Below are positions 1-55,468 of a stretch of DNA of 64,000 bases, in pieces. The notes under the pieces are model-generated. The model was not told the DNA's origin. It did not search any database and worked only from the letters and a program-made list of their open reading frames with translations. Source of the stretch: Styela clava (Eukaryota; Chordata; Ascidiacea; Stolidobranchia; Styelidae); contig NC_135262.1 in the NCBI RefSeq assembly GCF_964204865.1, positions 8,060,001 to 8,124,000 of the forward strand, written 5' to 3'. The number at the start of each line of letters is the position of its first letter. Position 1 is the stretch's first letter. The position numbers and the translations under genes were made by a program.

Positions 1-665
1 TGGCGTGAACCGATTTTGATGACGTGTCCCGTCCTCCAGTCCATACTCGTGTGTTACTTTATTATGCTTTCATTGTGATGCATGTTTTATAATGTTTGAC
101 GAAATATTAAATCTCTACGTGGTCCATTTTTGGTTCGTATATCAGATTTGTATCAAACATTGTGTCGGACCGGTCGGACCGATGACACATGACATGTTGT
201 GGGACTGTATGAACAAACACAATGAATTCACCGGCTTGAAATGTAGCATTATTACCTTTCTAAACATACGTGAACGAAACAATACTACGTAATATGAAAC
301 CTTCTCAAGATTCGCGTTTTAGCATGGCCCGGGGCGGAAAGCATCTCCATATGTTTACAATTACGAGAAAACGGTTAATTCCTACACACGAAAACCGTTT
401 GGACACGGGGAAGACTCAAATTTGTTTAGTTTCCTGGTTTGTACAGATTTTAAACCAATCATATTGCCACACGGTTATAACTTGAGGTCACAACGCATGC
501 GCAATTCGCTCTAACGGCGCCACGTAAAAATGACAGTGTCTTAAAATAACCATAAGAGGCATAGGTCGCTCTATAGTTTTCTTTTACTAGTTTCGTAGTT
601 GGACTGACATCTGTCGTCGTTTTAGATATAACAAGGTTTTAGGATTGACTAAACAAATAGGAAAA
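1..665 (+). promoter_or_regulatory. 5' flank and likely promoter of the PDI gene
   Basis: No coding sequence is seen here. Two motifs fit an ER-stress promoter. At 455-473 a CCAAT box is followed, after exactly 9 bases, by ACACG, one base away from the ERSE consensus CCAAT-N9-CCACG. At 20-26 there is TGACGTG, close to the UPRE core. A CCACGT occurs at 520-525. A tract ending in TTTTAG at about 638-643 lies 22 bases before the start codon and could serve as a 3' splice site, for a 5' UTR intron or trans-splicing. All are inferred from motif matches. Confidence 0.4.
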
Positions 666-3600
666 ATGTTATTTCGAATTGTACCTGCATTTTTGGTTGC
701 CCTTTTCGTGTTCGCACGGGGAGATGAAGAAGTGAAGACTGAAGATGATGTTTTAATTCTGACAGACTCAAATTTTGATGGCGTTATTGAAAAAAACAGT
801 ATGGTTCTTGTTGAATTCTGTAAGTATCTTTATGCATTTTACCGTATTTTACTTAAATTAGATATAACGCATTTGCATATGTACTGTATGTAAGTTACTT
901 CAGTACTGCAGTACTTACAGCTGTGCAGATCTCTGAATCTGCAGATGCACCTTCTGACTGTCTGACCTTCCTGAAATTTGTGAAAAGTCCATTCTTAAAT
1001 TCTGCAGTTCAAGTAATTCAAACTCGCTTCTGCATTGAAACTAAGCTAGTTGTTGATGAAGTCTGGAAGTGCTGACAGAGTGGAGATCATGATTGTATTG
1101 CACTAGTTTTATTGTCCCATGCTGTAATGCATTAATGGCCGGAAGGTTGAAGCATTGCAGCAGACTTTATTATCAGCATCACATCTGCACATGCCTGGCA
1201 TGCCGTTAAGTATAGCGGCAGCGCCATACACAGTTCTCCGCTTGCAGGAATAGACCCCAAATTAAAAGACATCAATTACCGGTACCAGTTCTTGCAAACT
1301 GCTCCGTTTCAGTGCGGTAGGGTACTCTCGATTCCAAAATTAGCTCCCACATTGAACGGCATTATAACATTGAGTGCACACAACTCTATTACAGTATTAT
1401 GAGTCTGTTTGAGTTACCATATCTGCACAAATCAGCAAACAGCACTTCACAGCTAAACTTAAGGGAAACCCAATCTGAAAACGCCACAGATTCTTCGAAT
1501 TCGATATCCTGAAAAAAATATTTTATAGCAGCATCTGAGATTTTTTTGCAAAAAACACAATTTTGACGATGTGATGCCTGACGCATGTCAGTAGTTATTT
1601 AAATTGTTATCAGAGACGAGCATGGCACGATCTGGCGCATTCTGCATTCAGAGACAAATAGTTTCATTGAATCGGATGTCGGGACATTTTAGAATCAGAA
1701 CTGTATCCTATTGCAAAGGGTCACTGAATAGCCTATTGTCCCATGTCCACTTAATCATCATCAACTGTGCAATCGTCAACACAAATGCTAAAGTGATGTT
1801 GTTGTTTCTTGCTCCATATTTTGCCTAAAGTTGTTTTTATCACTGTTTAATAATATTAGCTACCTATGCTCTGAACATGCTGTTCGCCAAACCATGGGTT
1901 TAATTCATAAAATCTGACATTTTAGTGTTATTATGTTTTGGGGTCACGCTGTAGAACAAAAAAATGAGACATAATCATTTTTGGCTTTACAACGACTATC
2001 AAGAGTTGGTATTTTTAACCACTTTCATTGTGAATGTAAAACAAGTCAAATCAAACCGCCTTGTCTTAAAAGTCTGTAAACACGTAAGAAACCCTTATTG
2101 TTTTAAGCTGTATTGTTTCTATGACATCCTATACTTAACCAAAGGAATATCCAAAATTAATTTCAGTAAATATCATCAGCCTATAAACTTGTTTTAAAAG
2201 ATGCTCCATGGTGTGGACATTGCAAAGCTCTGGCCCCCGAATATGCCAAAGCTGCCAAGAAATTGCTCGAGAAAGAAATGGCACCAAAACTGGGAAAAGT
2301 TGATGCTACCGTAGAGAAAACATTAGCAGAAAAATATAAGGTCCAAGGATATCCTACCTTGAAGTTTTTCAAAAATGGCGTTCCATTAGAATATCAAGGT
2401 CTGTGTTTCAATACTTATATATATTACTAACATTTTTGATTTATATTGACCAGACACAGATTGGTGTGTTCACTGCGGTGATCTCGCCCCTGAATGGATA
2501 AAGATCGCTAAAAAACTGAAAGCGAAAAAATCTAAAGTTGCGGTTGCGAAAGTCAATGGTGATAATTGTAAAGAAGTGCTTCAGAAATTGAAGATCACTG
2601 GATTTCCCACTATTATGCTATTTAAGAAAAAAAAAGTTTGGGAATATGATGGCAAGAAATTGTGATTTAGAATACTGGGGTTAGAGAAATGCATGAATTT
2701 GGAAAAGGACTAGGAATTGCAATAGCTGGCAATAAATTCGAATTTTTGGCTAAAATATGTCTGAATTGAGCATGTGATATGGTACCGAGTATCCAACTTT
2801 TTTTTATAGAAAAGTTTCGTAATGTGAAAAATTGATTTATTTGGTGTTTATGGTTTAATGTTCCTTATTAGTGGTACTTTGAACATAGTTGACTATAGCA
2901 TGATTAGTTGTAGTTATGTTTTTGTTTTGCTGATTGCTTTTTCCACAACAAGTTATATTTTTAATGTAGGAGGACGTACTGCTGATGAAATTGTTACCTG
3001 GCTCGAAAAGAAGACAGGACCACCATCCAGAGAACTTAAAACTAAAGAGGAATTGGAAAAATTCCAGGGAGACAATGATGTCTGTGTTGTTGCTTTCTTT
3101 CCTGTAAGTGACTTTAAATGCAACTTGTACTGTGTTTTTATCAAAAGTTAGGGTCAAAATATAATTATTGATGGTTTAGGTTCCAAGGAGTTCTGAGAAA
3201 TGTGACGAAGTTCTAGTTGCTCAATGGCCTAGTACTCATAAATTTGTCGGAATTAATTAGTTAGCATTGTATGTTCCATGCCCACCATCTGACTCAACGT
3301 TGAAACAATAGACAACAATTTATTTTCAGAATAGTTTCGCTTTAAATCAGGGGTGTGTAACAGTTAATGTTGATATCAGTTGATGTTTAAAAAAGCACTC
3401 ACATGGGTAGTGTCAACATCGGATTACAGTTCTTTCAAAAAATAATATCCTGACTACTTAAGAGCCTTGTTAATAACATGTTTAAAAAAAAGTTTCATGG
3501 ATTTTTACTAACGTGTGTTATATTATAGGATGCTGAAAGCTCAAATTCTAAAGTGTACATAGAAGTGGCTGATGGAATGGATGATGTTAGCTTTGCTCAT

Positions 3601-6600
3601 ATTTCTGATGCTGCAGTCGCCAAAGAAGCTGGTATCGGTGAAAATAAAATTGTTGTCTTCAGAAAGGTTAGTTAGATTACCATAGTTTTAATTTTCCCTG
3701 TTTACCGTATGACAGATGAGTCGTAGACTTTTCAAGCGTAGAATTTAAACTTGCCTCGTTTCAATGAAAAAAATAATATCAAACTGCTGTTTGTATTTCA
3801 ATGTATTTCAAATGTCAAATGTGCCACTTGTTAATACATGGTTCACATTGATATTTTTTTGTGTGTCAGTCTCATGAAATGTACTATGCTATATTCTAAA
3901 ATTGCTTCATTGATCTTACCAAAGCATACCATTGAACCTTTTCTTTATTAAACTTGGGCTGGCTTTGAGAAATTCAAAATTTTGAGCATAGTTCATTGTT
4001 TATTTCATCCATTATTTCAAAGAACGAGCCCAGGCAGGTCTTCCAAGGCACTCTCAGTAAAGATAAACTGGGGGCCTGGCTCTTAGACAAAACATGGATA
4101 TTTTTGCAAGAAATGAATGAACAGGTATTTCCTTTGTGGAGAAGCTCTTAGAAGAGTTTGGAGGGTGGCATATTGTAGTTCATCAGTCGGTTTGCCTAAA
4201 TATATGGTATTGGGGATCTGCTGGATATATGTCATGTATCAAGCCACCATATTGTAATTGCATATCTACAACAAAACATGATGTATATATATATACCGAT
4301 CTAGTTGAATGCAGCTTATGTGGTCCTATTTGGCTTTTACTCGAATTTTTGGTTTCCTAAGTTTATACATATAACTGTTAAAAAGCATTTTTGGTCTTGT
4401 CAGCGAATTTAAAAATTTGGTACTGGGTTGCTACATGGCATGTTGAGCAGATGTTTTACTTTTATCGTGTTTTACATAGTTGGAGTAGTTGCTAGAAATG
4501 GCATGTTTGATTTATTAGTTTGAAGATGAAGAACCAAAAATGGAATATGAAGGTTCTGGAACTGAGGCAGATAGCGTCAGAGATTTCATCAAGGGTAATC
4601 AACTCCCTCTCGTTAGTGAATTTACTCAAGAGGTAAGACTGGATATAAACCTTAATATCATTGGTCCAATAGATTTCTGTTGAAATCATCGGTCTTTAGG
4701 CCATGGTTCTGCTCTAATTTTCAATGATGAAAGGAATATAATGTTATCTAGCTGCAATTTTTGAATTTTGGTGAAAAAATATTTGGTAATGGCATTGTTG
4801 TGCATGTGTTTCATGGTAAAAGAGTATTCTAGTGTGCCTTAGTGCTCTGCTGAATGCAAGTTTAAAAATTTAAGAATCGTTGAGTAATTTTAGGTGCTTG
4901 GAACATTTACTTTTTGATATTAGCATTCAGTGAAGGAATGTGGTTTCCTCTGCTAAATTTTATAACCTAGTATTTTTGTGAACCATTTTCTGGTTTACCT
5001 TTTTTTTTTATAAATTAGGTTTTTCAAGTCTTTTTCACCTTTACGTGTATGATGATTTTCACTAACGGAATGAAAGTTTATTTTTTCAAATTATTATAAT
5101 GGAATAAAACTCCTTTACTCTTATATATTCTATTCCATTAATCCAATTTCATTCCTATTACCGGTAAATCCCAAGTTACCATGTGTGTAATACCATGTAT
5201 GTAATTTCACATTGTATATATAACCTTTCCCTAATACGTTACCCTGTATATAATTTTACGGTGTATAAATAACCTTTCCTTATATTATATGCTCAGTCTG
5301 CTCCTAAAATCTTCGGTGGAGCAATCACAACACACAATCTTCTCTTTATCAAAAAATCTGACGATGGCAGCAAGGATCTTTTACAAAAATTCAGAAAAGC
5401 TGCAGAATCTTTCAAGGGCAAGGTAAGTAGAGTATATATAGTAAAAAAGCATTTCTTCTCTGTAATGTACTGAGACTGTTCTAAAAAAAAAAATCACATC
5501 AACAGCATGTATAAGTCAGCGGTAAAAATAGGTCGCATTAAGTTGAATCAAATCTGTCAGATCAAAGTTTTTTTTTCATTTTTAAAGTTTTTTTCATTTC
5601 GTCGTAAACTGAATTGTTGCATCAATCGTCACTTATTTGGCTTCTCGGTAAGAACCAGAATAATCCATCATAAGTGATTTTTTTCTGGGAGTTCAATAAC
5701 CCCCTCAAATTAGAGTAGATGTTGCGGCTCTGAGTAGATTTTGAGTTTGACTAAACGGATGCCAAAGAAAGCTCTTTCAATGCTAAAGGTTGCTGACCAG
5801 TGGGCTATTGTATTGAATTCAATAAATTTTTGAATTTCATATTGATTTTTCTTATTTTAGTGTTTGGGATCAACTTTTCACTTGAAGTAATTTCAAATTG
5901 TGGTTTGAAATTGTGCTTTTTTTAGGTACTTTTCATTTACATTGATGCCGATATTGAAGAAAATGCAAGAGTTATGGAATTCTTTGGTCTCTCACCAAAA
6001 GATTGCCCGGACTATCGTATCATCAAGATGGATGAAGACATGGCCAAATACAAGCCAGAATCTACTGAATTTACCACTGAATCTATCACTGAATTCACAC
6101 AAAAGGTTGTTGATGGAAACATCAAGGTAACTAACTCCATAATATTTAATTAGTTATACCTCTGTATATTCGATCAAACTTGATCGCGTCGAACACAAAA
6201 AACAGAATTATTGTCGCTGTCACTGAGTTTTATTATATTTAACGATATTGTGGATTTGTGGTACATCATACCTAAAATACCTTTCTCCATTCGGATTTCT
6301 AACAATTTTCAAACATTTTTAGCGTCACATGAACACAGAGGAAATTCCAGAAGATTGGAACAAGAAACCTGTGCACGTTCTCGTCGGAAAGAACTTCAGA
6401 GAAGTTGCTTTTGATGCTAAGAAGAAAGTTTTCGTTGAATTTTGTAAGTGAAGATAATATTTTTAGCAAGTAAATCGTTTGGGTTTGTGAACTTCAATGT
6501 TAAAACAGATTTGTGCTGTGGTAGGTAGCTTTGCCATGGCTAGGTAGACGTTTTATTAAGCAATTCAAGATGATAGTCGTTTCTCTTAATTTTACATATG

Positions 6601-9600
6601 AATTTGTACAACTTTAGTTGTCCATTCTTAATTTGTAATCTACCTCAACAGTATTCATACTGCAATTGCTTATCGTTGTTCTTACGCAAAAAATTTTCAT
6701 GCTTGTTCGTCCCTCCAGATGCACCTTGGTGTGATCACAGTCGACGGTTTGCTCCTACATGGGAGGTTCTGGGTCGTAAATATCGGAATGTTGCCGATGT
6801 GATCATTGCGAAGATCGACGGCTCGAAAAATGACTTGTTTGGCATCAGAGTAGCGTCATTTCCAACACTACTTTACTTTCCGAAATCTTACCGGAGAGAA
6901 GTGAGCATGAGCAGTTGATGTTTAGAAAACTGTATTCAGTATTAGATAATCATCCACGTAGCACAAGCTGAGAATATCTATTCCCCACAAGCTGAGAATA
7001 TCTATTCCCAAAGCCCGGTGCCGAGTTGCGCCATGAATAGTTTTATTAGTTTCATTCATACATGATTGCACGATATTTTAATCAGACCGTGCATAGTCTA
7101 CTATTATAGTTCACAATACAGAAGTCATCGTGATCTTAGTGCAATATTGTCGTCATGTAGCCAGTATATATTGTTTAGCAATATATATTCTAAGATGGAC
7201 TAGTACGCAAGTCTCTGTTTCTACATGTGGTTTATCTATATTACATAAGTTTTAATCAGGTTCGAAAACAATTGTAATAATTGTTCGTGCATAACGAATA
7301 TAAACTTAGTTTCATGTTCCAAATTCATTTGGATATTTTCTGGTATAAAACATCTTTCCATTTGATATGTTAATTCTATTCTCCAGTCATTACTAGTAAT
7401 CAGATTCTTTCAACTAAACCACATAACATGCATGCGACATTCAGCTTTGTTGTTGTCCTTTAGATGCTCCATGGTGCGGTCATTGCAAACAACTTGCTCC
7501 CATCTGGGATAAATTGGGTGAAAAATACGCCGATAGAGATGACATCGTAATTGCAAAGATGGATTCAACAGCCAACGAAGTCGAAGAAGTCAAAGTATCG
7601 GGATTCCCCACCCTCAAATACTTCCCAGACGATCAAGAATCTAGTGTAAGATAGTGCATTGCTGCGTCATGGAGTTTTAGTAAATAACTCACTTCTGATG
7701 ATCTTAAAGTGATCACAGATTATATGTGTAGTGTGGTATTAGATGTCCTAAAATTTTGAACATTGAATTTGCAGAAAACAATCGTATCGTTGTTCAAGGT
7801 TCGTACTTCGGCGTTAAATTTAGAGAGGCAGTGACACTGCGCCACTTTTTCTTCAATATATGCTACATTTATTTCTAAATAGATGGAATTTCAATGCTAA
7901 ATCCTTATCTATTGTTGTGTGTAAATTGCACACCGGTTATTGCACAGTTTGAATAGTTCTTGGTTTGAATAGTTTGAATTCTCACTCCGTGGAGGCTTTA
8001 AGTTATGAGAATACATTGTCATCAACCCAATTTAGGTAGAGTTCCATCTTTGTGCCAAGATTCTTTTTAAGTATTTGATAAACTGATTTTTTTCTTTATA
8101 TAGGTTGTTGATTATAACGGAGCAAGGACACTGGAGGCTATGATAAAGTTTATTGATTCCGACGGAAAAGATGTAAGTGGTGGTGGCGATGAAGAGGATG
8201 AAGAATTAGAAGAGGTGTGTAGTGATAGATTCCAGTCAGGAAATCTTTCGATTCGTCGACGTGTCTCCTGGTTACGTGTAGTCACACGTAACCAGGAGAC
8301 ACGTCAACGAATCATGATCTGGAAATGATTTCCTTGCTGGCTAATGTAGTTGAAGTTATGCCAATGCCACTCAATTTTGTGGCCTATGCAAATGTATGGT
8401 TTCATGAGAGTCATATTGAAGTAGATATGGTAAGTTTATGATGCCATGAATACATGCATTTGTGTGGTTAAAAAATATGAATTATTAATCAGTTCTCTGC
8501 TTTTGCCAGGATATTAAAATTGGTTTATAGAAATTTTTTATAAATATAAACAGCTTTCAAAATTTTTGAATTTGTACATTCATACAGAATTTGATCTCCC
8601 TTAAACATTGAATTGGTACAATAATGAATTTCCGAGAATTCGCGAATGGCGAACTTCATTAGTTGTAGCAGTAGTCATCAAATTGGGTTAATTTTTTGTT
8701 TCTAGCAAGAAAAATTCAACCACATAATTTTACTTAAACTTACTAACCAGTAGTCAGTAGAATCACAAACATAATTTGTTGAGTAGTGATTTAGTTTGCA
8801 TTGTGGTAGTTGCTTTCAACCTTTTTTAATAGTTACTAGCGATTTTGCAGTAGTTATATCGGCTACCTGATCAGTTTAACAAAAAGTAATCGCAGAATGA
8901 AATGACAGAATTTTTGCAGTTTTCAAAATGTTGAAAAAAAAATTAAACACTAAATGCCTAAAAATTCCTAAATATAAAATCGATTTGCTTTATCATTTTG
9001 CTTGAGTAAAGCAACCCATATCTCCAAATGTAAATCACTACTGCATCGCTATCTCCAGCAAAAATAGTTTTAACTTAATAGTTCAATACTAATTGGTAAA
9101 CTATGGAATGCAAGCTTTGTGTGCTTATCTATGATAGATCAGAATTGTTGGTTTTTGTAGATCTGAAATTAGCTCTTAGTAATAAAGGTATGGTGTGGAT
9201 TCTGTGGAAATTACACAACGGTTTTGGATTTTTGTAGTATGTTATTCAATGCGCTCTGTTGCTCCAGTGTGCACTTGGTTGTTGTTAATTAACTCTGGAG
9301 AATGAGAAGCAAATGGCAAATGACGTAGTATTAAATATTGTGTATTTTAGTTTTACGTTGCATGTTGAGTAAGCGAAGGTATTACATGTGAAGCAAATAG
9401 GTTTAGTATTTCGACCTGTGTTCATTAGTTTTAAAGCTAATTATAATGCATGACCAAGTTACAGGTGTTTGAGGAGTTAATGGTATGGGTTTATTCAATG
9501 GTCGTAGTTAAGAATTGTTGGTCAAATCGGAAATTTGTTGGAGAACTCAGCAGTCTATCTATGTGGTACATGATGTCTTGCTGCTATCCCTTGTATATTG

Positions 9601-11977
9601 CCAGTGATAGTTAAAATGTTGATTCAGATTGTTCCACGTAAGAAAGGAGAGGATGAAGGAATCTCCCATCCAGGTGACGATCAGTTACCTGATGATTTAG
9701 AAGACAAATTGCAAGAAAAACTTGATAAAATGCCTGAATACCAGGAGGCATTGACTGCTCAGAAACATATGAAACAACAGAAAAAGGGCCAGGCTGGTCT
9801 CTCTGGTGCATTCGGAGGAATGTCGGAAGATGAAATCACAGCTCATTTTAAAGAAAGATTCAAAGAGATTGCCGAAGAAAAAGGTTTGAAAATTCCCGAC
9901 GGGTTATACAATGCTACTTTGAATGCCACTGAGGTCAATAGTACAGCGCAGAATTTTGTGGACCCGTACCAGAATTTAACTCAAGAACAAAAAATGGAAA
10001 AGTTAGCGGAGCTGAAAAATAAGATGGAGGAAATGAATCAACAGTTTGATAAGGAAATGGCAGAATTCTTTGAATCGGTAATTTGTGTGTCTTAGCGTCC
10101 TATTCTATTAGAAAGTCTATATATTTACAGTTTTTATACTATTTAGATTAGAAGCATGGTAATGAATAGGTGGTACCGCTTACATTGTCTTTTCTTTAGT
10201 AATGGTGTATTTGGTATTCATGGCTAGCGTTTCTTATGAATTGGTTATATAGTTTCTGGCTTGGGATAAGCAATATCGTTAGTTATTAAAGGTTGGGAGA
10301 ATTAGGTCTTGCAGTATAAGCATGAAATACCAGTGATTTTGTCTGACAACTAATTCTTCGGAAATTGAACTTTCAAGGGTTCGTTCATGAAAGATTTGGA
10401 AGCAAATATGCCACCTAGTGACGTTAAAGAAATGCCATCTGGAAATGATGCAGATGATCATGCTGAAGAAATGCCATCAAAAAGTGATATGGATGCATTA
10501 AAGCAAGCGACAGAAAAGTTGAAAGAGAAAAGCAAAGGCGATAAACAAGAACTTTAGGATTAAATTGATAAATTTGTTATAGAAAAATAGATTGCGAGAG
10601 TGAATTTTGATGGACTTGCTGTCGGTTGAACTGAGCTTGCTGTATTTCGGTCGTTTTTAACAAATCACTGAAAGCCTTTGTGTGGTGTATTAGGAAAATT
10701 TACTTGTTGATTTAAGTTTTAAAAAAAAAAGTACTTGGAATATAAAAGCGCTCATGAGAAATTGTTGAAATGAATCGACTTGCCAGGTGTTTATGATAGA
10801 TTTCCACATCCAGGTCAGGAGACTTATTGCAGAGAAATATCAGATTGCGATTCGAAAGTAAATTAAAAAAACATAATACGAATATGAAATTGCTGCATTT
10901 TCATAACTCTGTTCTTCTGTACTGTAGGCTTTGTTTTAAATTATGCGAAGAATCTGCACAAGATTAATATATATAGTATTTAGTCTAAAGTAAGATAAAA
11001 ATTGACATTTCATGATATGCAGGATGGAATCGTTTTCGTAACAACCAAACTACACACAATCATGACATGCTTGTAAAACAAGTGATGGAGAAATCTTATC
11101 TCCCGATGCACAGTATAATAACAAGTAAACTAGGCAACCACATTGCATAAAATAGAGCAGCCAAATAGATCACTACAGATGAGGGAAATTTAATTTGCAT
11201 TCTATCCAATGAGCAAATATGAACATCTTTATTAACAAGACGAGGCCACACGCAGCTCCGGGGTACGCCAGAGATAATATTGCGCAATGATATCAGTAAT
11301 GCAATAATCGGTGACGATAACCAATTTCTTGCGCGATTTGTTGGATTATCCAAATAAAACTAAAATTAATTTGTCAATATTACCAGTTAAAATTATAGAC
11401 AATATGGATAACACGATCACAAAAAATATGAATTCCAGTGTTGTGCCAGTTCACTAGTCCCCTCCTGTCTCATGGGGTGAAATTGTGCTAAAACTTGCAT
11501 TGTAACCAAGACTGTTTTCGTTGTTTGTGTCGCATTAGATCATCTTTGCAAAACTTAACACTAGAGCAAACTTTTAATTTTTTGAATCAAATCATTCCTG
11601 GTATGCATGACCTTAATGTAATAAGATAGTCCTGCCATTTTTTTTTACCAGAATATACTTGTGTTCTATGTGTGATTGTCCATAGCTTTGTTAATAGGAT
11701 AATTTGAATTTCCCAACTAAAACATCCAGCTAATAAAAACGAAAAACGATAGTAGCAACATCCTAACAAAACTACTTTCATTTACTCTAGAATAATGTTT
11801 CACATCCTGATTATATTTTTCATTCCATCTTCGTAAACTTATCTTTGGATATTCTGCGCTTTAACATATTATGTTAACGAACGTTTTCTTTTTTCCCAGG
11901 AGGATATTGATGAAGAGGCCGAAGATCAAGAACAAGAGGAAGTTGAGCAAACAACCGATGGAAAAGATGAATTATAA
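666..11977 (+). CDS. P4HB: Protein disulfide isomerase (P4HB/PDIA1), canonical splice form
   Basis: ER-luminal oxidoreductase and isomerase, also the beta subunit of prolyl 4-hydroxylase in other animals. Exons 666-819, 2201-2398, 2970-3103, 3529-3666, 4519-4632, 5297-5422, 5926-6126, 6323-6443, 7464-7645, 8104-8214, 11900-11977 join in frame to 518 codons (human is 508). The start ATG at 666 gives a hydrophobic signal peptide ([19 protein letters not shown]). The domain order is a (CGHC at residues 56-59), b, b', x-linker, a' (CGHC at 400-403), an acidic tail and the terminal KDEL. Matches to vertebrate P4HB run along the whole length, for example the segment around KIFGG in b' and [13 protein letters not shown] in a'. 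Several introns hold second, in-frame versions of exons (listed separately). Splice sites were called by eye from phase and homology. A stronger-looking donor (GTAAGT) lies inside exon 10 at 8173. Confidence 0.93.
2454..2651 (+). CDS. Alternative a-domain catalytic exon of PDI (CVHC active site)
   Basis: A second version of exon 2 lies 55 bases downstream of it. It has the same length (198 nt) and the same phase at both ends. It follows an acceptor CAG at 2451-2453 and reads [15 protein letters not shown] at the active site, then a thioredoxin core ending in TGFPTIMLF. The reading frame meets TGA at 2662, but just before that, at exactly the position of the exon 2 donor, stands G|GCAAGA, a GC-type donor. 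Exon 1 can therefore join either exon 2 or this one. A 55-base gap is probably too short to be removed efficiently as an intron, which would make the two exclusive. It keeps both cysteines but changes the CGHC glycine to valine and loses the APW lead (TDW instead). Expression is not shown. Confidence 0.7.
3180..3260 (+). pseudogene. Possible decayed duplicate of PDI exon 4
   Basis: After an acceptor-like TTTAG, an open stretch of 26 codons contains [13 protein letters not shown] followed by FVGIN and a stop. It can be laid against the start of exon 4 ([15 protein letters not shown], then FAHIS) with a few shared residues in the same spacing. There is no donor before the stop. The match is weak, and it is called mainly because intact second versions of exons 2, 5 and 9 exist in the same gene. 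Confidence 0.25.
4023..4124 (+). CDS. Alternative exon 5 of PDI (b/b' junction)
   Basis: An in-frame 34-codon stretch between an acceptor (TTTCAAAG) and a donor (CAG|GTATTT), phase 0 at both ends like exon 5 (38 codons, 4519-4632). The two align clearly. This one reads [20 protein letters not shown]; exon 5 reads [20 protein letters not shown]. Shared features include EP-K/R, a Y/F-x-G pair, the hydrophobic pattern, and an ending E-M/F-N/T-E/Q. Exon 4 (ends phase 0) can join either, and exon 6 (starts phase 0) accepts either. It is probably a diverged duplicate used in a second PDI isoform. Splicing is not shown. Confidence 0.55.
4770..4832 (+). pseudogene. Possible decayed duplicate of PDI exon 6
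   Basis: A 20-codon open stretch reads [17 protein letters not shown] before a stop. It resembles the start of exon 6, [19 protein letters not shown], sharing KIFG-x-x-I-x-x-H. No good acceptor precedes it and a TAG ends it, so if it is a relic it is dead. The match is short and was judged by eye. Confidence 0.3.
5587..5677 (+). pseudogene. Possible decayed duplicate of PDI exon 7
   Basis: In the intron before exon 7 a stretch begins VFFI (exon 7 begins VLFI). After a frame change of about 8 bases it continues as [10 protein letters not shown], comparable with [14 protein letters not shown] of exon 7. It holds stops and a frameshift. The match is weak and has value only beside the other duplicated exons. 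Confidence 0.2.
6719..6900 (+). CDS. Alternative a'-domain catalytic exon of PDI (CDHS active site)
   Basis: A second version of exon 9 (7464-7645), with identical length (182 nt) and the same phases, flanked by a good acceptor (CCTCCAG) and donor (GTGAGC). Its active site is [14 protein letters not shown], against [14 protein letters not shown] in the canonical exon. It keeps the cis-proline region (SFPTL) and is open throughout. The resolving cysteine is replaced by serine. In known CxxS thioredoxin-fold proteins (for example ERp44, CRFS) this favours holding a client through a mixed disulfide over oxidising it. The reading frame has been kept despite strong divergence, which argues for use. 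Exon 8 can join either version in frame. Confidence 0.75.
6962..7009 (+). repeat. Perfect 24-base tandem duplication between the two a' exons
   Basis: The unit starting CACAAGCTGAGAATATC occurs twice back to back (6962-6985, 6986-7009), about 60 bases after the donor of the CDHS exon. Its function is unknown. Confidence 0.85.
7775..7834 (+). pseudogene. Possible decayed duplicate of PDI exon 10
   Basis: After an acceptor (TTTGCAG) the frame reads [19 protein letters not shown] and stops. It lines up without gaps with the start of exon 10 and its animal homologues ([13 protein letters not shown] here), sharing the valine pair and the RT six to seven residues later. A donor-like AAG|GTTCGT at 7799 could instead make a 24-nt in-frame micro-exon. 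The match is weak. Confidence 0.25.
8250..8313. repeat. Long near-perfect RNA hairpin in the intron after exon 10
   Basis: Two 30-base arms (8250-8279 and 8284-8313) are inverted copies with one mismatch (a G-U pair in RNA) and a 4-base loop AGTC. Weaker pairing extends outward to about 8232 and 8342. It begins 35 bases after the donor of exon 10, the point where the two alternative 3' ends of the PDI transcript diverge. Confidence 0.9.
8343..9627 (+). other. Intron sequence, nothing recognised
   Basis: This is PDI intron between exon 10 and the KQEL tail exon. No coding stretch, signal peptide exon or repeat was recognised. The absence of a signal-peptide exon here is part of the case that the next exons belong to PDI. 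Confidence 0.5.
9628..10557 (+). CDS. Alternative C-terminal exons of PDI: glycosylated tail ending KQEL
   Basis: Two open exons, 9628-10077 (450 nt) and 10378-10557 (180 nt with stop), begin in phase 0 after GATTCAG, as needed to follow exon 10. They encode 209 residues. The first part is charged and helical, with [12 protein letters not shown] and a later coiled-coil-like segment ([19 protein letters not shown]). Between them lie three sequons (NAT, NAT, NST), with NLT shortly after. The product ends KSKGDKQEL, a KDEL-type ER retrieval signal. Sequons plus KQEL mark it as ER-luminal, yet it has no signal peptide, so the simplest reading is an alternative 3' end of PDI giving a 702-residue protein. 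I do not recognise the domain. It could instead be a separate gene with an unseen first exon. Confidence 0.6.
10558..11899 (+). other. 3' UTR of the KQEL form, then intron before the KDEL exon
   Basis: No coding stretch is seen. ATTAAA at 10559 and AATATAAAA near 10739 are possible poly(A) signals for the KQEL form. The acceptor for the last exon is TTTTTTCCCAG, ending at 11899. Confidence 0.4.
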
Positions 11978-13155
11978 AATGAAATTATTAGTCGTTTCGA
12001 TTTTTTGAGCGTTACGCCTGGGACTGTGAAGCAGCAAAAGAGTGTTAAAGCCCCTCATGAAATAGCAGTAAATTTAGATGAAGGCATTTCTATTTTGTTT
12101 TGAGAAGTGTGCCATAGGAATTCTTGACCCATTTTTCGGTTTTACAATTTTTTTTTTGTGCCAAGCCAGCTATTTGCTCTATTGCTCTGTTAACTTTATT
12201 TAAAAGAGTCCCTTCAGATTAATAAGATGTGCGATTGACAGCATGAATATTTGAAATCTTTATCTTGGTGTCTGTTCAGCATCTATGCATTTAATTTCTT
12301 GAAATTTTGACGGGGATTAAATGAGGAATTCGGAAATCTTCCCGCGTTATTTTTTTTGTTAAAAGCATGTATTAGCAGCTTTAATGCTCTAGTGAGGAGT
12401 GTTTAGTGCGTGGTTGACTGATTGTAAGCTGGTCTTCCTGGCAATGCTCTCGAGAGGATATCCCTTGTCGGATCGTCTGAGCAGGTGGTAGAGAATGAAG
12501 AGTTCTATGTTGGGCACCTATTGCGTTAACGGCGGGGAAGACTACTACCTGCTCACAAACATAGGGTGCAATTCGGTTCGATAAGACCAGGATACAGCAA
12601 TGTCCGTATCCAAGAACCAAGAAGTTCTTCGAACTCGGCGACGACGTTTTCATACATCGCCTCCGAACGAATAGACTCGGACAAAGAACGGTGGAATCAC
12701 AAATCGGACCCACCCTCTACGCATGCACGTCCATGCCCATCCGCCTACACGAAAGGCAATACATATATATATTGGACAAAACCGAATATATGCAAAAACT
12801 AGTCCATAAGAAGGGTAAAAAACACAGCAGGTTTAAGATGTGAACTTCGAAAGAGTAGCCGGATTTCGAGGTCGTATGGGGCGCAATTGTATGTTAACTC
12901 GAAATAAGGATTGGTAATATGATAATAAATATGACGATCATTTTGTAGTGACAAGTCAGTAAGTTCGGAGGTGGGTTATGGAAAAGTGTTAACATGTTGT
13001 ATATTTCTTCTGCTTCATTGACTGTAAGATTATCATGAGAAAATACAAATTTGTGGTAATATTGTTTTGCTTCAGTAAATCGACTCGATTAAAATAAATT
13101 ATATGGACTAGAAACAAAATTTTCAGGTTAATTTTTATAATCGCATTGTATAAAC
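11978..13155 (+). other. 3' UTR of PDI, then unidentified spacer
   Basis: The 3' UTR of the KDEL form probably reaches the ATTAAA near 12315. Beyond it I recognise no gene. The open frames at 12.4-12.8 kb on both strands have no family resemblance. Confidence 0.4.
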
Positions 13156-37600: not shown

Positions 37601-38479
37601 AAAAATAATTCTTGTTCGTAATCGAAAATGTACATGCGAAATTGGTATTACCTTATCAAACATTTCACTACGATACTGCAATAAATACGACGCTAAACGA
37701 CAAGTAATATTGCTATCTTATTAAGATAAAAATGGGTTTCTATTTACACAAAATTTATAGGTGATAATTGCACAAGAGATTTGTAGAAAAGCAGGATTCG
37801 CTATTCAACCTGATGAAGAACAATTAAGAGTTCAGCTTGAGAGTATATACAGTGAATTGAGTGCTCCAACACAATGCAGAGTGAGTTCATTTTTACAAAA
37901 AATTTAGATTCTATGCCAATTTTTCTGGTAACTGCTATTATTGTTTTATCCTTTATACACTTGATTTCGTTTCCAGTTGAGTCTTAGTTTAACAAATATT
38001 ACAAAGAAGATAAAGTTAATGGGCATGATGCTATGAGCAGGCTCTGCAGAACTTAAATTGCTATTGTGCTATGGGGCTGCTTGTTTCGGGCTCTGTTAGA
38101 AGCAAGAGTGTAATCTACCTCAATGATGTAATTTCAATATATAATTTACATATCACAGGGAAGACTAAATGAAATGTTATCACAAATGCGAATGCAACAT
38201 CATCACAATACTTTGGCATCATCTCTTACTTCCGGGCAAAATAGAAGCGACAGAGAAGGCATCTTAGACGATGAGGCTTTATCGGAGATTAAGCTTCATT
38301 TAAAGAAACAACAAGAAGGCTTGAATACACTTATTGGACTATTACGAGAAGATTTTGAGGATTTGAAATTAATGGAACATGGTCTTACAGATGAAGATGC
38401 ATTGGTTTCTGGTATGGGACAAACAGGAATGAATCCCACTGTTGGTAGTAGAGGCTCAGCATATAGATATTATCGATGA
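31699..38479 (+). CDS. NUP54: Nucleoporin NUP54
   Basis: Central-channel nuclear pore protein that partners NUP62 and NUP58. Exons 31699-31768, 32406-32474, 33421-33477, 33688-33741, 34625-34905, 35531-35721, 35901-36103, 36801-36949, 37087-37194, 37761-37880 and 38159-38479 join in frame to 540 residues (human 507). The N-terminal part is rich in FG repeats (MAFSFGNK, SLFGQSG, FTFGAG, GFGAKT, GLFGGN), then glutamine-rich, and is encoded by four very short exons. The conserved body starts near AILAKWNQIQAFWGTGRGFY and ends in helical coiled-coil segments (RLNEMLSQMRMQHHHN and on) in the last exons. Introns 2, 4 and 9 carry two hAT MITEs and a SINE fragment. ATG context: AAGATGG. Confidence 0.95.
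32575..33132. mobile_element. hAT MITE in NUP54 intron 2, with 8-bp target duplication
   Basis: Termini CAGGGGTGTGCAA and TTGCACACCCCTG are exact inverted repeats. The 8-base ATGTAAAA stands on both sides (32567-32574 and 33133-33140), the duplication size made by hAT transposases. It is 558 bp and non-coding, with GGCCCGC sequence near each end. Confidence 0.9.
34046..34525. mobile_element. hAT MITE in NUP54 intron 4
   Basis: Termini CAGGGTGGTCCAA and TTGGACCACCCTG are exact inverted repeats. The flanks ATTTAGAT and ATTTTAGAT look like an 8-base duplication with one added T. Inside, GCGGGCCACA motifs are repeated. It is a different subfamily from the copy at 32575. Confidence 0.85.
37360..37515 (+). 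mobile_element. tRNA-derived SINE fragment, copy E, in NUP54 intron 9
   Basis: Contains a B-box relic (GGGTTCGGATGGGG) and the body (GATGAGGATTACTGGACTCC, then ATCCATGCATCTGAAACA), with both ends missing. Confidence 0.55.
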
Positions 38480-43477: not shown

Positions 43478-45301
43478 CTAATATGATGATAATATATATT
43501 GTTTAAGTTTGGAACGAAATTCTGAGTTCGATTTTGAATTTTTGATGTCATCGGGTAGGGAATTCCAAGCTTTTGGTCCACATACTGCGATTGATTCTTG
43601 TGAAATACTTTTACTGACAAATGGAATAAAAAAATTATCTTTATTTCTGCTGTTTGAATTTGGGTTTGCTTGGAACAGGCTGTTCAGGCTGGACGGAAGC
43701 TCTCCAATGTGACAAGAAAACATCATATTACATAGTTCGAATTTAGCTAAATCCACAACTCGTAGTAGCCTATGCTCTTTAAATAAGTCATCAATTTTTT
43801 CGCGATTACCTCTATGAAAAACTCTTCTAATAAAGCGATTGCAAACACTTTGAATTTTTTTGAGAATGGACGATTGGCGATGAACATAAGCTGAGGCACA
43901 ATAACGAATATGGCTTTCTATCAGAGAGTGGTATAGAGATATTAAACAAGATGTATTTAAGTAGTTGGCTATTTTCGTAATGGCACTAAGAGACGACCTT
44001 GTTTTCGATAGAACCATATTGGTGTGTTGTTTCCAAGACAATTTATCATCGATCATTACACCCAGAAAGCGAGTCTGATTAACTCTTTCTATATTTATTC
44101 CATTTAATTCCAAATTTTGTTGCAGAGTTGGACACTTTTGCTTCGGCGTGCTAAATATCATATATTTAGTTTTATCGACATTAATAGTGAGTTTGTTCGC
44201 AGACAACCAAGCTTGAATATTTACTAAGTCGGTATTTGCCTTGGTCAAAAGTTCAGGCAAGTTTTTGCCTCGAAGATATGGCGTTGAGTCATCAGCAAAA
44301 AGTATGATATCAGAGTGAAGAAGAGAATTCGGAAAGTCGTTAATAATGATTGAAAAACATAATGGAGCCAAAATAGAACCTTGTAAAGTACCTACAGTCA
44401 AATTACAGTATGTGCTAGATGCTACATCATTGTATATAACTACTTGTTTCCTTCCTGATAAGTAGCTTTTAAACCAATTATAACTCTGACCTCTAACGCC
44501 AATATGGTGCAATTTGGCTAGTAATATGTCATGGTCAATACTATCAAATGCCTTGGAAAGGTCCAAGAACATACTGAGAGTATACTCATTCTTATCAAAT
44601 CCTTCTAGAATTTTACTGACAAGCAGGGATGTTGCATGAGATGTTGAATGATTTTGACGAAAGCCAAATTGTTGTGAATAAAAGAAATTTTTTTGGTCTA
44701 GGAAATGGTTGAGTCGTTTGTACATAATTTTTTCTAGAATTTTTGAAAATGCGGGAAGTAAGCTGATCGGTCGGTAGTTTTTTACATCTTTTGCATTTCC
44801 TTTTTTGAACAATGGCATAACTTTGGATAATTTGAACTGGTCTATGTATTTACCAGATTGTAATGAGCAGTTAAAGATATGTGCGAGAGCACAAATACAA
44901 TTCCAGGGCATCATTCGTATAACTTTAAAGGGAATTCCATCTATTCCACAACTGGTTTTGGGTCGAAAAGATTTCAGAATATTTTGGACTTCGAAAGCTG
45001 TTGTCGGGGCAAGAAACATGGAGGTTTTACTGGGATGCCCCATATATTGCTTAAAGTCATCCCTTCTAGTATGAGTAAACCGTTCGACCATTTTATTTCC
45101 AATTGTAGAAAAGTGCGAGTTAAAATGATCTGCTATTTCGACAGGATCCGAGGTTTCCTGGCCGTTAATAGAAAATACTTTTGTTAGATTTGGTTTAGAA
45201 CGCCCAAGCAGATCGTTCATAGTACGCCAAGTTTTCTTAAGATCATTACGATGTCTACCTAGTAATGACTTGTAATAATTTTGTTTCTTAGCAGTTATCA
45301 A
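43478..45301 (-). pseudogene. LINE reverse transcriptase region
   Basis: A 607-codon open frame with the reverse transcriptase blocks in order: NYRPISLL at about 175-182, LDLSKAFD at 246-253, GTLQGSILAP at 304-313 and FADDS at 335-339 (the usual form ends in T). A C-terminal region with cysteines follows. The frame continues upstream of 45301 without a stop to about 45360, where a frameshift separates it from the endonuclease part. Confidence 0.9.
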
Positions 45302-45357
45302 TTTCTCATATTTTTTCTTGCATTCTGAATATTTAAATTTGGTCTGCTTTGATTTTT

Positions 45358-45681
45358 CTAGTTTTTGTATAGTTTATGCTTTTTTTTCTGCATTTTTAAG
45401 AGTTCCTTGTCAAACCATTTATTATTATTTTTAATATTTCTTTTCTTCAGAGGGAAGCAAGTTTTAAAAGATTCAGAAAAATACTCATTAAAAATTCTGA
45501 AGGCTATATCAGGATCCGTTTTGCTGAACACAGCAGAAAAGTCACTTTGTTCTAACATGAGTTTAAAATTATCTAAATTTGAGATATTATATTGCCTGAA
45601 GTATTCGTTTTCTGCCTTGCGAAGTTTTTTTCTTAATGGAATGCAAACCAGGACTGGCAGGTGGTCTGAAATAGGATCCAC
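45358..45681 (-). pseudogene. LINE ORF2 middle segment (end of endonuclease and linker)
   Basis: Starts with the endonuclease catalytic end (DPISDHLPVLV) and runs 107 codons to a stop near 45358. It lies in a different frame from both neighbours, showing one frameshift on each side. Confidence 0.8.
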
Positions 45682-45683
45682 TA

Positions 45684-46748
45684 TTATTGCACTGCGGGGT
45701 TTACTTTACAATCAAAGATGTTTGTCCAAATATGGTCAATGATTGTAGAGCTGCTTTGAGTGATTCGAGTTGGCTTTGACACCACAGGGTAAAATGAAGC
45801 CGAATTCATCAGCTCACAAAATTCATCTACAGTCTTGTTTGTTTCCAGAAGATTATAATTGAGGTCTCCCATGATAATACAATTTTTCGATAAGGTTTGG
45901 AGTGTCGATTCCAGAATACTAATAAATTGATTATTGCTTTGACTATCTGATAAGGGAGATCTGTAAATTGTTCCACACGTCACAATTCTATCCTTTAAAT
46001 AAATGTCTACGAAAGTGGATTCAAAAATTCGCTCATTCATAATTGAAATGTCAGGTCTAGCCTTGAAGGTAATATTTTTTTTGATGTATAGGCCAACACC
46101 CCCACCTTTCGAAGTCACTCGAGGATTTGATAAAAAAGTATAGTCACCCAGGTTCATGTGGGATCCTATCTGATTTGGTTTTAGCCATGTTTCATTGACT
46201 GCTATTAAATCTGGGCAGACTGTCATTGAGGCTATAAGAGCTTCAAGTTTTGAAAAGTTTCTTGGGTTGGCCAAGGAACGCATATTAATACACATTGTAA
46301 CAAGTGGGTTCAAGTTATCACTGCATAGGATATCTAAATTAGCGGCAGAAAGATATTGACAATCAGACATACAAATTTTTGTGGAATCGCTTATTTCATC
46401 ATTATCAATATTCAGTAACGAAGCCTCAGTAAAAAATTCGTTAAGAATTTCTGGGGTCAGAGTCGAGGAAGGGTCATTATTCAGGCATAGGTCATTTACT
46501 TCTGTATTAGATAACGAGCTGAATGGCAGGCTATTTCGTAGGCAAAGTCTACAGTACCAAGGTATATCATTTGGTTCATTACATAGTTTACGAAACTCTT
46601 GTAAATTTAAACCACTACATTTTAGATGAATCCAACGATTACATTTATCACAGTAGATCCCCTTTTCCCTATTGTTTACAGATTTTTGGCATCCATGACA
46701 TGGTAAATCTCTCTTATTAACATTCATATGGGCAAAAAAGATAAACAA
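45684..46748 (-). pseudogene. LINE PHD finger and endonuclease N-terminal part
   Basis: 354 codons. A PHD-type zinc finger (CHGCQKSV, IYCDKCNRWIHLKC, WYCRLC) lies near residues 17-68. The start of an apurinic-like endonuclease follows (NMRSL, VNETWLKP, GGGVGLYIKKN, TIYRSPL, GDLNYN, IDHIWTN). The frame ends at NPAVQ where homology carries on in another frame. Confidence 0.85.
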
Positions 46749-46852
46749 AAGTAAATAAACAAAAGTTGCTCTTGTGTTTAGTGCTTACAATGAGAATTTG
46801 GGCTGTTCTAGCATATCAATAATTCATAGTCTGTAGTTTTACGGTATCTTAC

Positions 46853-47479
46853 TTATATCATAATATCTGATGTGGTTCTAATAATTATTTTCTTACCGTT
46901 ATGAAATCCATATATGTCTCCATTCATAGTCCAAACATTCTTAAGTCCGAGAACTCTTCTTGCTTCGGTGAGAAGTTCGACTCGACGTTTTGTCAGCGAT
47001 TCGGTAATTGATAGTCCAGTCTTTTTAAGTCTTCTTTTCATGGAGTAAATCATATTTTTGGTGCTGCGACGCACAAATTTAACTATTATAGGAACGTTTC
47101 CTTTGCCATCAGCTGGGAGAATATGTGTAACGTCTATATCTCCATATTGTATAGGCCATTCTAATTTCAAGGCCGAGTTTAGCGTATTAGCCACATATGT
47201 TTCAAATTGTCCATAATGACCTGCTTTCGGTATTCGTTTGCAGCCATGCAGTAAGATACAGTTCCTCCTCCCATATTGTTCTAAATTATCGATTGCAATT
47301 TCGTTTTTTGTGGCGCTTTCTTTAATTTGTTCAACTATTTTGGCTAAACTTTCAAGTTTATTTAATATGCAGCTAGATTTGTTTTCCAGGGCGTAAAAAG
47401 AGAAATAAGAAAATACTAAAAATATGCGAAATTGTAATTTATAGGGATGTGTAAAAAGAGAAATAAGCAGAAATGGCAT
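46853..47479 (-). pseudogene. LINE ORF1 (RNA-binding type)
   Basis: Reads as a coiled coil (LNKLESLAKIVEQIKES), then DNLEQYGRRNCILLHG, IDVTHILP, PIIVKFVRR and RRVELLTEARRVLGLKNVW, typical of LINE ORF1 proteins with an RRM-like core. Residues before about 47390 come from the tandem repeat and are probably not original. Confidence 0.75.
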
Positions 47480-47600
47480 ACTAGGAATATGCGAAATTGT
47501 AATTTATAGGGACGTGTAATAGGAGAAATAAGCAAAAATGGCATACTAAAAATATGCAAAATTGAAATTTATAAGGACGTGTAAAAAGAGAAATAGACAA
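47392..47600 (+). repeat. Tandem repeat, about 3.3 units of 59-65 bp
   Basis: Units start at 47392, 47451, 47516 and 47581 with GTAAAAAGAGAAATA or a near form. It adjoins the 5' end of the LINE and could belong to its 5' UTR. Confidence 0.8.
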
Positions 47601-53555: not shown

Positions 53556-55468
53556 CACGGCAGATGTTTGTTTCCTAATTTACACACGCGGAACAAGAGA
53601 ATAATTAACCCCAATATTACATTACAGAGTATGTACGGCCTTGAACGAAGATAATGCCTAATTACTGCTGTTTACCTAGGCCCAATTGCTTTTTTTTTGT
53701 CAGTATTTTAATCATTAACCAATCGTATTATTCACAATATGACCGAGTCACTGTTACTTGACTGCAATACGTAGAGTTTATTGTATGTACATACAGCAGC
53801 ACAATAGTCTTCTGCGGTAACGGATGGATCAGATATAGTATAGGGCAGTGTTATTCAACCGGATAGCCTATACTGTTTGCCAAGTCAGATCCCGGATGTA
53901 CAAAAACAAATGGTACACGAGGGTTTATAGCTAATGGTCTGGGTCGAATATATATATATACTGTACACTACTGCCAGTTTTGTGTTTTAAAACAGATGCA
54001 GTTCACGTTCGACATTGGAATTTGCAAGTACAGTGTTTGAATTTTCCACAAATTTTGCGAGGTAAATTTATGAGTCAAAATGGCTAAGGTTCTGATTACA
54101 TCACCGAAGCAAAGCCTACATTGTAGTCTTCAGAGCGTTTTTGGTGATTAACTATTTCATCGGATCTTGTGAATTAGTCATACATAACTACAAAATTCTT
54201 CCGAATACATTTGACATTTTGGAAACGTATTGTTATAACAGAAAAATAGAGAGAGATTCAATTGTAGAATTGACCTAAAACTTGTCAGACTTCACATCGG
54301 AAAACAATAAAAAAAAGGTGATAATGGATTCAAAGGTGGGCGATACCGTGTGCTATTATGTCTTTTTAGTTCCTAGTTTGACTTCAACGCCGAATATGGA
54401 CTATCAATGTTGATTAACATATCTTTAAGATATTTGCGCGTTGCACATATTAGACCTATCTGAAATACTGTTGATTTTTCGAAATTTTCAATTTCTTTGT
54501 TATCGATCCTCCGGATTATTGTGCGTGATACATTTTTCACTGGGTGATAGTCGTTTTTTGCTGAAAGTTCTCCCATGATGCTGTATGTTTATACCACGGT
54601 TGTGAAGCAGGAGTTTGGAGCATATTTTCACTGGGGTAGGGGCCGGATTCGTATTTTTGAACTTTCAGACATTCAACTAATGATTTAGTCAGAATTTCCT
54701 TCAAAAACTCAAAACGAAATCAGTTTAATGACCCGACTAGCATATTATGCAAATATATTTGTTGTACAGTATTTGCCGGAGTTGGAAAACGAGGTCGGTT
54801 TATCAACCCATAATCGGAGTCAACGAAAAGATTTTCTCACACTCCATAGCCATTACCCTGGTTTTTCCGAAGATACCAAAACAATATATATATAATTTGT
54901 ACGCCTACAAAATAAACCTATCATTGTAGGCGTTCGTGCTCTTTTTTTAAAATTCTTGATTGCAATCTTACCAAGGTTCCTGAAACAGAATAGGCCGGTA
55001 TACCGTGTTTGCCAAACCCTTTTTTTAGTTTCTTGAATATATATTAAGTATCAGTCGTGTTGAGGTGCTGTTGTGCATCCAGCAACAACCGCGAAATGAG
55101 CAGGGATCAAATTTAAGACTCCTGTTAGGTTATTAATCGATACTCTTTTTATTAAGATTGTTCACATATTTCAAAAAGACAGTGGCTCAGCACGTGATGG
55201 CGTTTGCAGATACTTAACGAAAAATGTAAACGGACGACAGGTCTGTAGGAATTATTGTGTTTGTTCAAAAAACACTGAATAGTTTTGCTCACATTATACT
55301 ATACTGTTCCATGTAAGCATTTTTAATAGTAACAGAAAAGGCATATCCTCAAACAGCTTACAAGCATGGTATAAAAGTGACTTTTATCAGAAATGACTTA
55401 CAATATCAAAAATCCTCAACATAATTTACATATCTCTTGACTATTCTGACAGTCATAACCTTTTTCAG
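53556..55468 (+). other. Spacer or 5' region of the first ODC-like gene
   Basis: The first coding exon of the ODC-like gene should lie here but was not identified. 54075-54150 repeats 39276-39345. A minus-strand open frame at 54373-54576 is uncertain. Confidence 0.35.

Follow-up and report, generated by a model that had tools for sequence, protein, structure and literature searches.

The stretch of DNA analysed here, 64,000 nucleotides (nt) of the ascidian Styela clava (C17:8060001-8124000, contig NC_135262.1; hereafter the window), harbours a complete protein disulfide isomerase (PDI) gene of 11 exons at 666-11977 on the + strand. We consider it likely that this gene carries three tandem-duplicated and probably mutually exclusive exon pairs, at exons 2, 5 and 9, together with two 3' ends, which encode KDEL or KQEL. 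The alternative exons for both active sites, the linker and the C-terminus are real sequence features and very probably coding, and from them we infer their use in RNA, their exclusivity and the biochemistry of the products. The diversity of animal PDIs is usually explained by gene families. If the locus is spliced as we read it, the founder PDI would have both of its catalytic motifs switchable within one gene. The switch would also cover the presence or absence of a resolving cysteine, KDEL or KQEL, and sequons or none, and a chordate enzyme would join those genes that have more than one cluster of mutually exclusive exons.

The second exons and their coding character

Judged by its sequence, the main gene is a tunicate PDI of the PDIA1/P4HB type. 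The genome also has a tunicate look, in that its one GH6 match, on contig C9 (E 1.5e-6), is situated some 2 kb downstream of an open frame resembling, by eye, a cellulose synthase (CesA), and a CesA-GH6 fusion is a mark of tunicates. A search for COX1 gave no match. The joined frame of the main exons (isoform A) encodes 518 amino acids (aa), with two CGHC sites and a KDEL end, and is similar to P4HB over its full length, the best match in PDB being 8eoj_A (P4HB, 570 bits). We take 8eoj_A, 4ekz_A and 5xf7_A to be human entries, and 29te_B to be a fungal one. Exon 1 (666-819, ending in phase 1) contains the protein start and the start of the a domain, whose CGHC site lies in exon 2 (2201-2398; 198 nt, phase 1-1). 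The CGHC site of the a' domain lies in exon 9 (7464-7645; 182 nt), exon 5 (4519-4632; 114 nt) is in phase 0-0, and the acidic terminal exon 11 (11900-11977) ends in KDEL. Exon 1 would be shared by all products, as would exons 3 (2970-3103), 4 (3529-3666), 6 (5297-5422), 7 (5926-6126), 8 (6323-6443, ending in phase 1) and 10 (8104-8214), the last before the choice of tail.

Five second exons lie among these, also on the + strand. Exon 2b (2454-2651; 198 nt, phase 1-1) is an alternative a-domain exon with CVHC and a GC donor (ATG/GCAAGA), exon 5b (4023-4124; 102 nt, phase 0-0) is an alternative version of exon 5, and exon 9b (6719-6900; 182 nt) is an alternative a'-domain exon with CDHS. The alternative tail is formed by exon 11b (9628-10077, phase 0-0), with four N-glycosylation sequons, and the terminal exon 12b (10378-10557, stop at 10555-10557), with a KQEL end. 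Intact second versions of exons 2, 5 and 9 and of the C-terminus had been claimed in a preliminary description of this DNA, and all of them proved to be open and frame-compatible at these coordinates, and none of the five second exons has a broken frame or lacks its splice signals. The features ascribed to the second set, CVHC, CDHS, a sequon-bearing tail and KQEL, are likewise present in the sequence. The second exons are all compatible in frame with each other, and the form with 2b, 5b, 9b and the alternative tail (isoform B) is one open product of 698 aa, which matches 8eoj_A at 458 bits and has CVHC, CDHS and KQEL in place of CGHC, CGHC and KDEL. All four sequons of isoform B are in the tail, and isoform A has none. 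The alternative tail is equally in frame behind the main exons, giving 702 aa.

The members of two pairs are equal in length (2/2b, 198/198 nt; 9/9b, 182/182 nt), with homologous boundaries and identical phases, and share 42% (2/2b) and 48% (9/9b) of their protein residues. Exons 5 and 5b differ in length, 114 versus 102 nt, and their mutual similarity is weak. The order within the pairs varies, since 2 precedes 2b, but 5b precedes 5 and 9b precedes 9.

Several lines of evidence indicate that the second exons are coding. Exons 2b and 9b match the Pfam family Thioredoxin (1.2e-14 and 7e-8, respectively), tblastn within the 64 kb aligns them to their partners at 4e-13 and 4e-18, and their best PDB domain matches are thioredoxin domains of the PDI family. 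In the PDB scan, 9b falls in register on the a' domain of P4HB with 53.5 bits, compared with 17.3 on the a domain. For 2b, among the matches listed, the best single-domain scores (40-41 bits) are to both PDIA4 domains and the P4HB a domain, and the score on the P4HB a' domain is 24 bits. Differences at codon positions 1, 2 and 3 number 29, 28 and 40 of 65 in the pair 2/2b (p 0.023), and 26, 20 and 41 of 60 in the pair 9/9b (p 0.0002). When the two pairs are pooled, 103/250 differ at positions 1+2 and 81/125 at position 3 (Fisher p 1.8e-5). Given this third-position excess, both members of each of these pairs look constrained, as would be expected had they remained coding since the duplication. 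The score of 5b against P4HB exon 5 (33) is beaten by 0 of 300 background stretches and by 2 of 500 shuffles, and its case rests partly on place, phase and splice sites. An open stretch of 450 nt, as in 11b, is found in 2 of 7,336 background windows.

The duplication appears to be confined to these exons. Broken look-alikes of exons 4, 6, 7 and 10 had also been reported, and none of them rises above background. For each exon, the best local alignments of the exon itself and of the corresponding P4HB exon were sought in two neighbouring introns, with 300 stretches of equal length from 12100-63900 of the window (+ strand) as background. In the 12 tests no second copy of exons 3, 4, 6, 7, 8 or 10 stands out, the lowest values being 25/300 (exon 6, at 4776) and 42/300 (exon 8, at 6274), and a tblastn search found no second copy of exon 1. 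The earlier picture of two PDIs that alternate exon by exon is therefore overstated, since only three exons are duplicated and one 3' end has an alternative. With no second copy found of exons 1, 3, 4, 6, 7, 8 and 10, most of the chain would be common to both products. A second PDI elsewhere as donor of the b exons was also considered and rejected. Genome searches covered the 376.6-Mb assembly (379 contigs); isoform B as a protein query gave a list of 34 matches, in a type of search that scores best candidates only, and those off the locus are, as far as recognised, PDI- or thioredoxin-family places.

Proposed mutual exclusion and its possible consequences

In the arrangement proposed here, exons 2, 5 and 9 would have been duplicated in tandem, the copies would be used instead of the originals and never together with them, and the two alternative 3' ends would lead to a KDEL or a KQEL tail. 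The gap between exons 2 and 2b (2399-2453, + strand) measures 55 nt and is thus shorter than any of the 21 introns in isoform A and in the PDI-family gene on contig C18 described below (minimum 77 nt). It contains TACTAAC, in which position 2430 is the putative branch A for 2b. This A is 31 nt away from the donor of exon 2 and 23 nt short of the end of the intron. A steric limit of about 50 nt for the distance between donor and branch point is given in passages of PMC7969005 and PMC5740500. With the putative branch A at 31 nt from its donor, exon 2 should fail to splice to 2b. In the frame test, skipping both 2 and 2b leads to an immediate stop, and the use of 9 and 9b together, or of neither, leads to a frameshift and a premature stop.

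A branch point too near to the donor of the upstream exon is also described for alpha-tropomyosin and OGDH in parts of PMC7969005. In OGDH the branch points lie far from the acceptor, whereas at the present locus the intron is short as a whole. More than one cluster of mutually exclusive exons per gene is found in arthropod Mhc and Dscam and in human CUX1 and TTN (passages of PMC5740500 and PMC3912159), and such multi-cluster genes use steric or frame-shift features as exclusivity devices, according to a section of PMC5740500. The present locus differs from them in that it encodes a PDI and in that the swap would alter catalytic cysteine motifs. Genes with multiple clusters of exclusive exons are well known, and what appears notable here is a swap that would affect both catalytic motifs. 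In the titles and abstract starts of the PDI papers found in a PMC library, no mutually exclusive PDI exons are reported. Human P4HB splice variants are the subject of PMC7640458; the word 'mutually' is absent from its main text, and no second exons of human P4HB were seen in the passages covered. In PMC8945230, on TXNDC5, the phrase 'mutually exclusive exons' occurs once.

If the pairs are used in this way, the swaps of 2 and 9 would each replace half a thioredoxin domain, with the shared exons 1/3 and 8/10 completing the fold. The choice of 2b would lead to a CVHC site, still redox-capable and probably with an altered potential. The choice of 9b would lead to CDHS, in which the attacking cysteine would be kept and the resolving cysteine gone. 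ERp44 is a CxxS retention protein and, from what is generally known of the biochemistry of ERp44-type CxxS proteins, the CDHS a' domain, having lost the resolving cysteine, should hold substrates in mixed disulfides and not release them, acting as a trap more than as a catalyst that turns over. The presumed likeness to ERp44 is functional and lies in a thioredoxin domain with an N-terminal Cys and a C-terminal Ser; the domain order is different.

Several points weaken the case for mutually exclusive pairs. The steric threshold of ~50 nt is a vertebrate figure, and for 5/5b and the tails nothing was found in the DNA that enforces a choice; 5/5b would need a regulator. The similarity of 5b to the tunicate exon 5 is insignificant (37/500 shuffles), and an open frame by itself is not rare for short exons, occurring in 2.6% of windows for 2b, 14% for 5b, 3.6% for 9b and 3.8% for 12b. 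The GC donor of 2b is weak, the lowest of 14 donors scored on a donor consensus. Moreover, the evidence consists of the DNA of one genome.

The second exons could also form a coordinated second PDI, if a single splicing programme, specific to a tissue, selected 2b, 5b, 9b and the KQEL tail jointly. This would be a special case of the exclusive pairs, and it is possible rather than probable. In its favour, the second exons fit each other in frame, and the joined product, open over 698 aa, has altered sites. Against it, the DNA showed no feature that ties the choices to one another, the tail fits the main exons as well, and four independent choices would allow up to 16 forms. It is with some doubt, and as a tentative proposal, that we describe one chordate gene with a coordinated multi-cluster switch between a CGHC/CGHC KDEL enzyme and a glycosylated CVHC/CDHS KQEL form with a substrate-trapping a' domain, so that folding would be re-tuned by splicing and not by gene duplication.

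Another explanation is that the second exons are relics, formerly alternative and now unused or noise-spliced. The GC donor of 2b and the strong divergence of the b exons from their partners (42% and 48% identity) would suit relics, but the third-position excess, and the frames and splice signals that are intact at five second exons, make this unlikely.

The alternative tail and its hairpin

The case for the alternative tail as coding is made by the 450-nt open frame, the good phase fit from exon 10 and the KQEL end. KQEL is like a signal for retention in the endoplasmic reticulum, which is meaningful only behind a signal peptide. The tail has no match to a Pfam family above cut-off, no second copy in the genome search with isoform B (such searches score best candidates only) and does not resemble the C18 gene's tail (Z -0.7; 382/500 shuffles). 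A single-sequence AlphaFold prediction consists of helices, with a mean pLDDT (predicted local distance difference test) of 58.2, a quality too low to base a fold search on. The tail at 9628-10557 might instead be an independent small gene, as its open frame includes an in-frame ATG at 9616, ahead of the exon. This is improbable, as the acceptor and phase fit exon 10 and a KQEL without a signal peptide would presumably be idle.

A hairpin of 46 base pairs with a 4-nt loop (8232-8340, + strand) starts 17 nt past the exon-10 donor. Its stability is -71 kcal/mol (z -9.7), and its inner arms, of 30 nt, are 97% complementary. Pairing between introns was also considered as a device for exclusivity and set aside. 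There are 34 inverted-repeat pairs of at least 18 nt in 11.4 kb, and among the 25 of these that were listed all but the exon-10 hairpin are imperfect, with 73-89% complementarity. A 119-nt query with the hairpin matches only itself in the genome, in a search that skips very common words, and Rfam gives no match in 1-13000 at gathering cut-offs. The hairpin could bear on the tail choice, and it might just as well be an inverted repeat of recent origin. The intron that separates 9b from 9 holds an exact 24-nt tandem repeat in two copies (6962-7009).

Comparison with PDILT and other genes

The preliminary description had compared the second set with PDILT. The parallel is unsupported, since the b exons score nearer to P4HB, the motifs differ and a separate PDILT-like gene is present. 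The likeness consists of altered active sites, glycosylation sites (sequons here) and a KDEL-like end (passages of PMC3500226). The active sites of PDILT are SKQS/SKKC (SxxS, SxxC) and its end is KEEL (same passages of PMC3500226), whereas the second exons carry CVHC/CDHS. Scores against P4HB and PDILT are 130 and 45 for 2b, 33 and 18 for 5b, and 160 and 104 for 9b.

The separate gene, at C18:12756001-12764000, is a PDI-family gene of 12 exons, which lie between 226 and 5665 of that stretch. It has SKGS and HKES where PDIA1 has CGHC, and therefore no active-site cysteines, and its long, histidine-rich tail ends in HDET, without KDEL. Its intron plan is PDIA1-like, with 198-, 114- and 121-nt exons in common with the locus studied here. 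Against PDILT and P4HB, respectively, C18 exon 2 scores 60 and 37, and exon 9 scores 80 and 76, whereas exon 5 favours P4HB (36 versus 15 for PDILT). At full length the C18 protein also scores higher to P4HB, 135 versus 109 bits for PDILT, which might fit P4HB as the slow-evolving relative. The C18 gene groups with PDILT in a full-length tree of five proteins, with long branches (85/93), and in an exon tree (95). The five-protein tree also pairs the fungal PDI with the tunicate isoform A (90/92), a grouping that points to poor sampling and long branches, so that the grouping of C18 with PDILT is only supportive. The exon tree, of six rows, draws the b exons beside PDILT and C18 with a support of 32 and a near-zero branch, a placing too weak to date the duplications. 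Second exons were looked for in the C18 gene too, and PDI exons compared with its 11 introns give best scores of 21-34, a comparison without a background run.

As a PDILT-like gene exists separately, there is no need to seek PDILT inside the locus studied here. That the second set is a tunicate PDILT within the P4HB gene is highly improbable. Besides the altered sites, sequons and KDEL-like end that recall PDILT (PMC3500226, in part), 9b and PDILT exon 9 share 22/54 residues and the exon tree sets the b exons by PDILT and C18, on its practically zero branch. On the other side, 2b, 5b and 9b all score higher to P4HB, and it is the separate SKGS/HKES gene that groups with PDILT. An assembly artefact is a negligible prospect, for which no support was found beyond a possible base error at the GC donor. 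The protein identity of 42-48% and the differences at most third positions (40/65, 41/60) are far from those of duplicated haplotypes, and the genome search gave no second copy of the tail.

At C19:4603751-4605469, an uninterrupted open frame of 633 aa matches thioredoxin three times and is PDIA4-like in layout. It is apparently intronless there, unlike the multi-exon PDI genes on C17 and C18. Elsewhere in the window, by eye, open frames at 38132-38476 (+) and 55397-55705 (+) resemble Nup54 and ornithine decarboxylase, respectively, and open frames on the - strand at 43481-47503 are like those of a non-LTR (long terminal repeat) retrotransposon, with reverse transcriptase and endonuclease-like parts.
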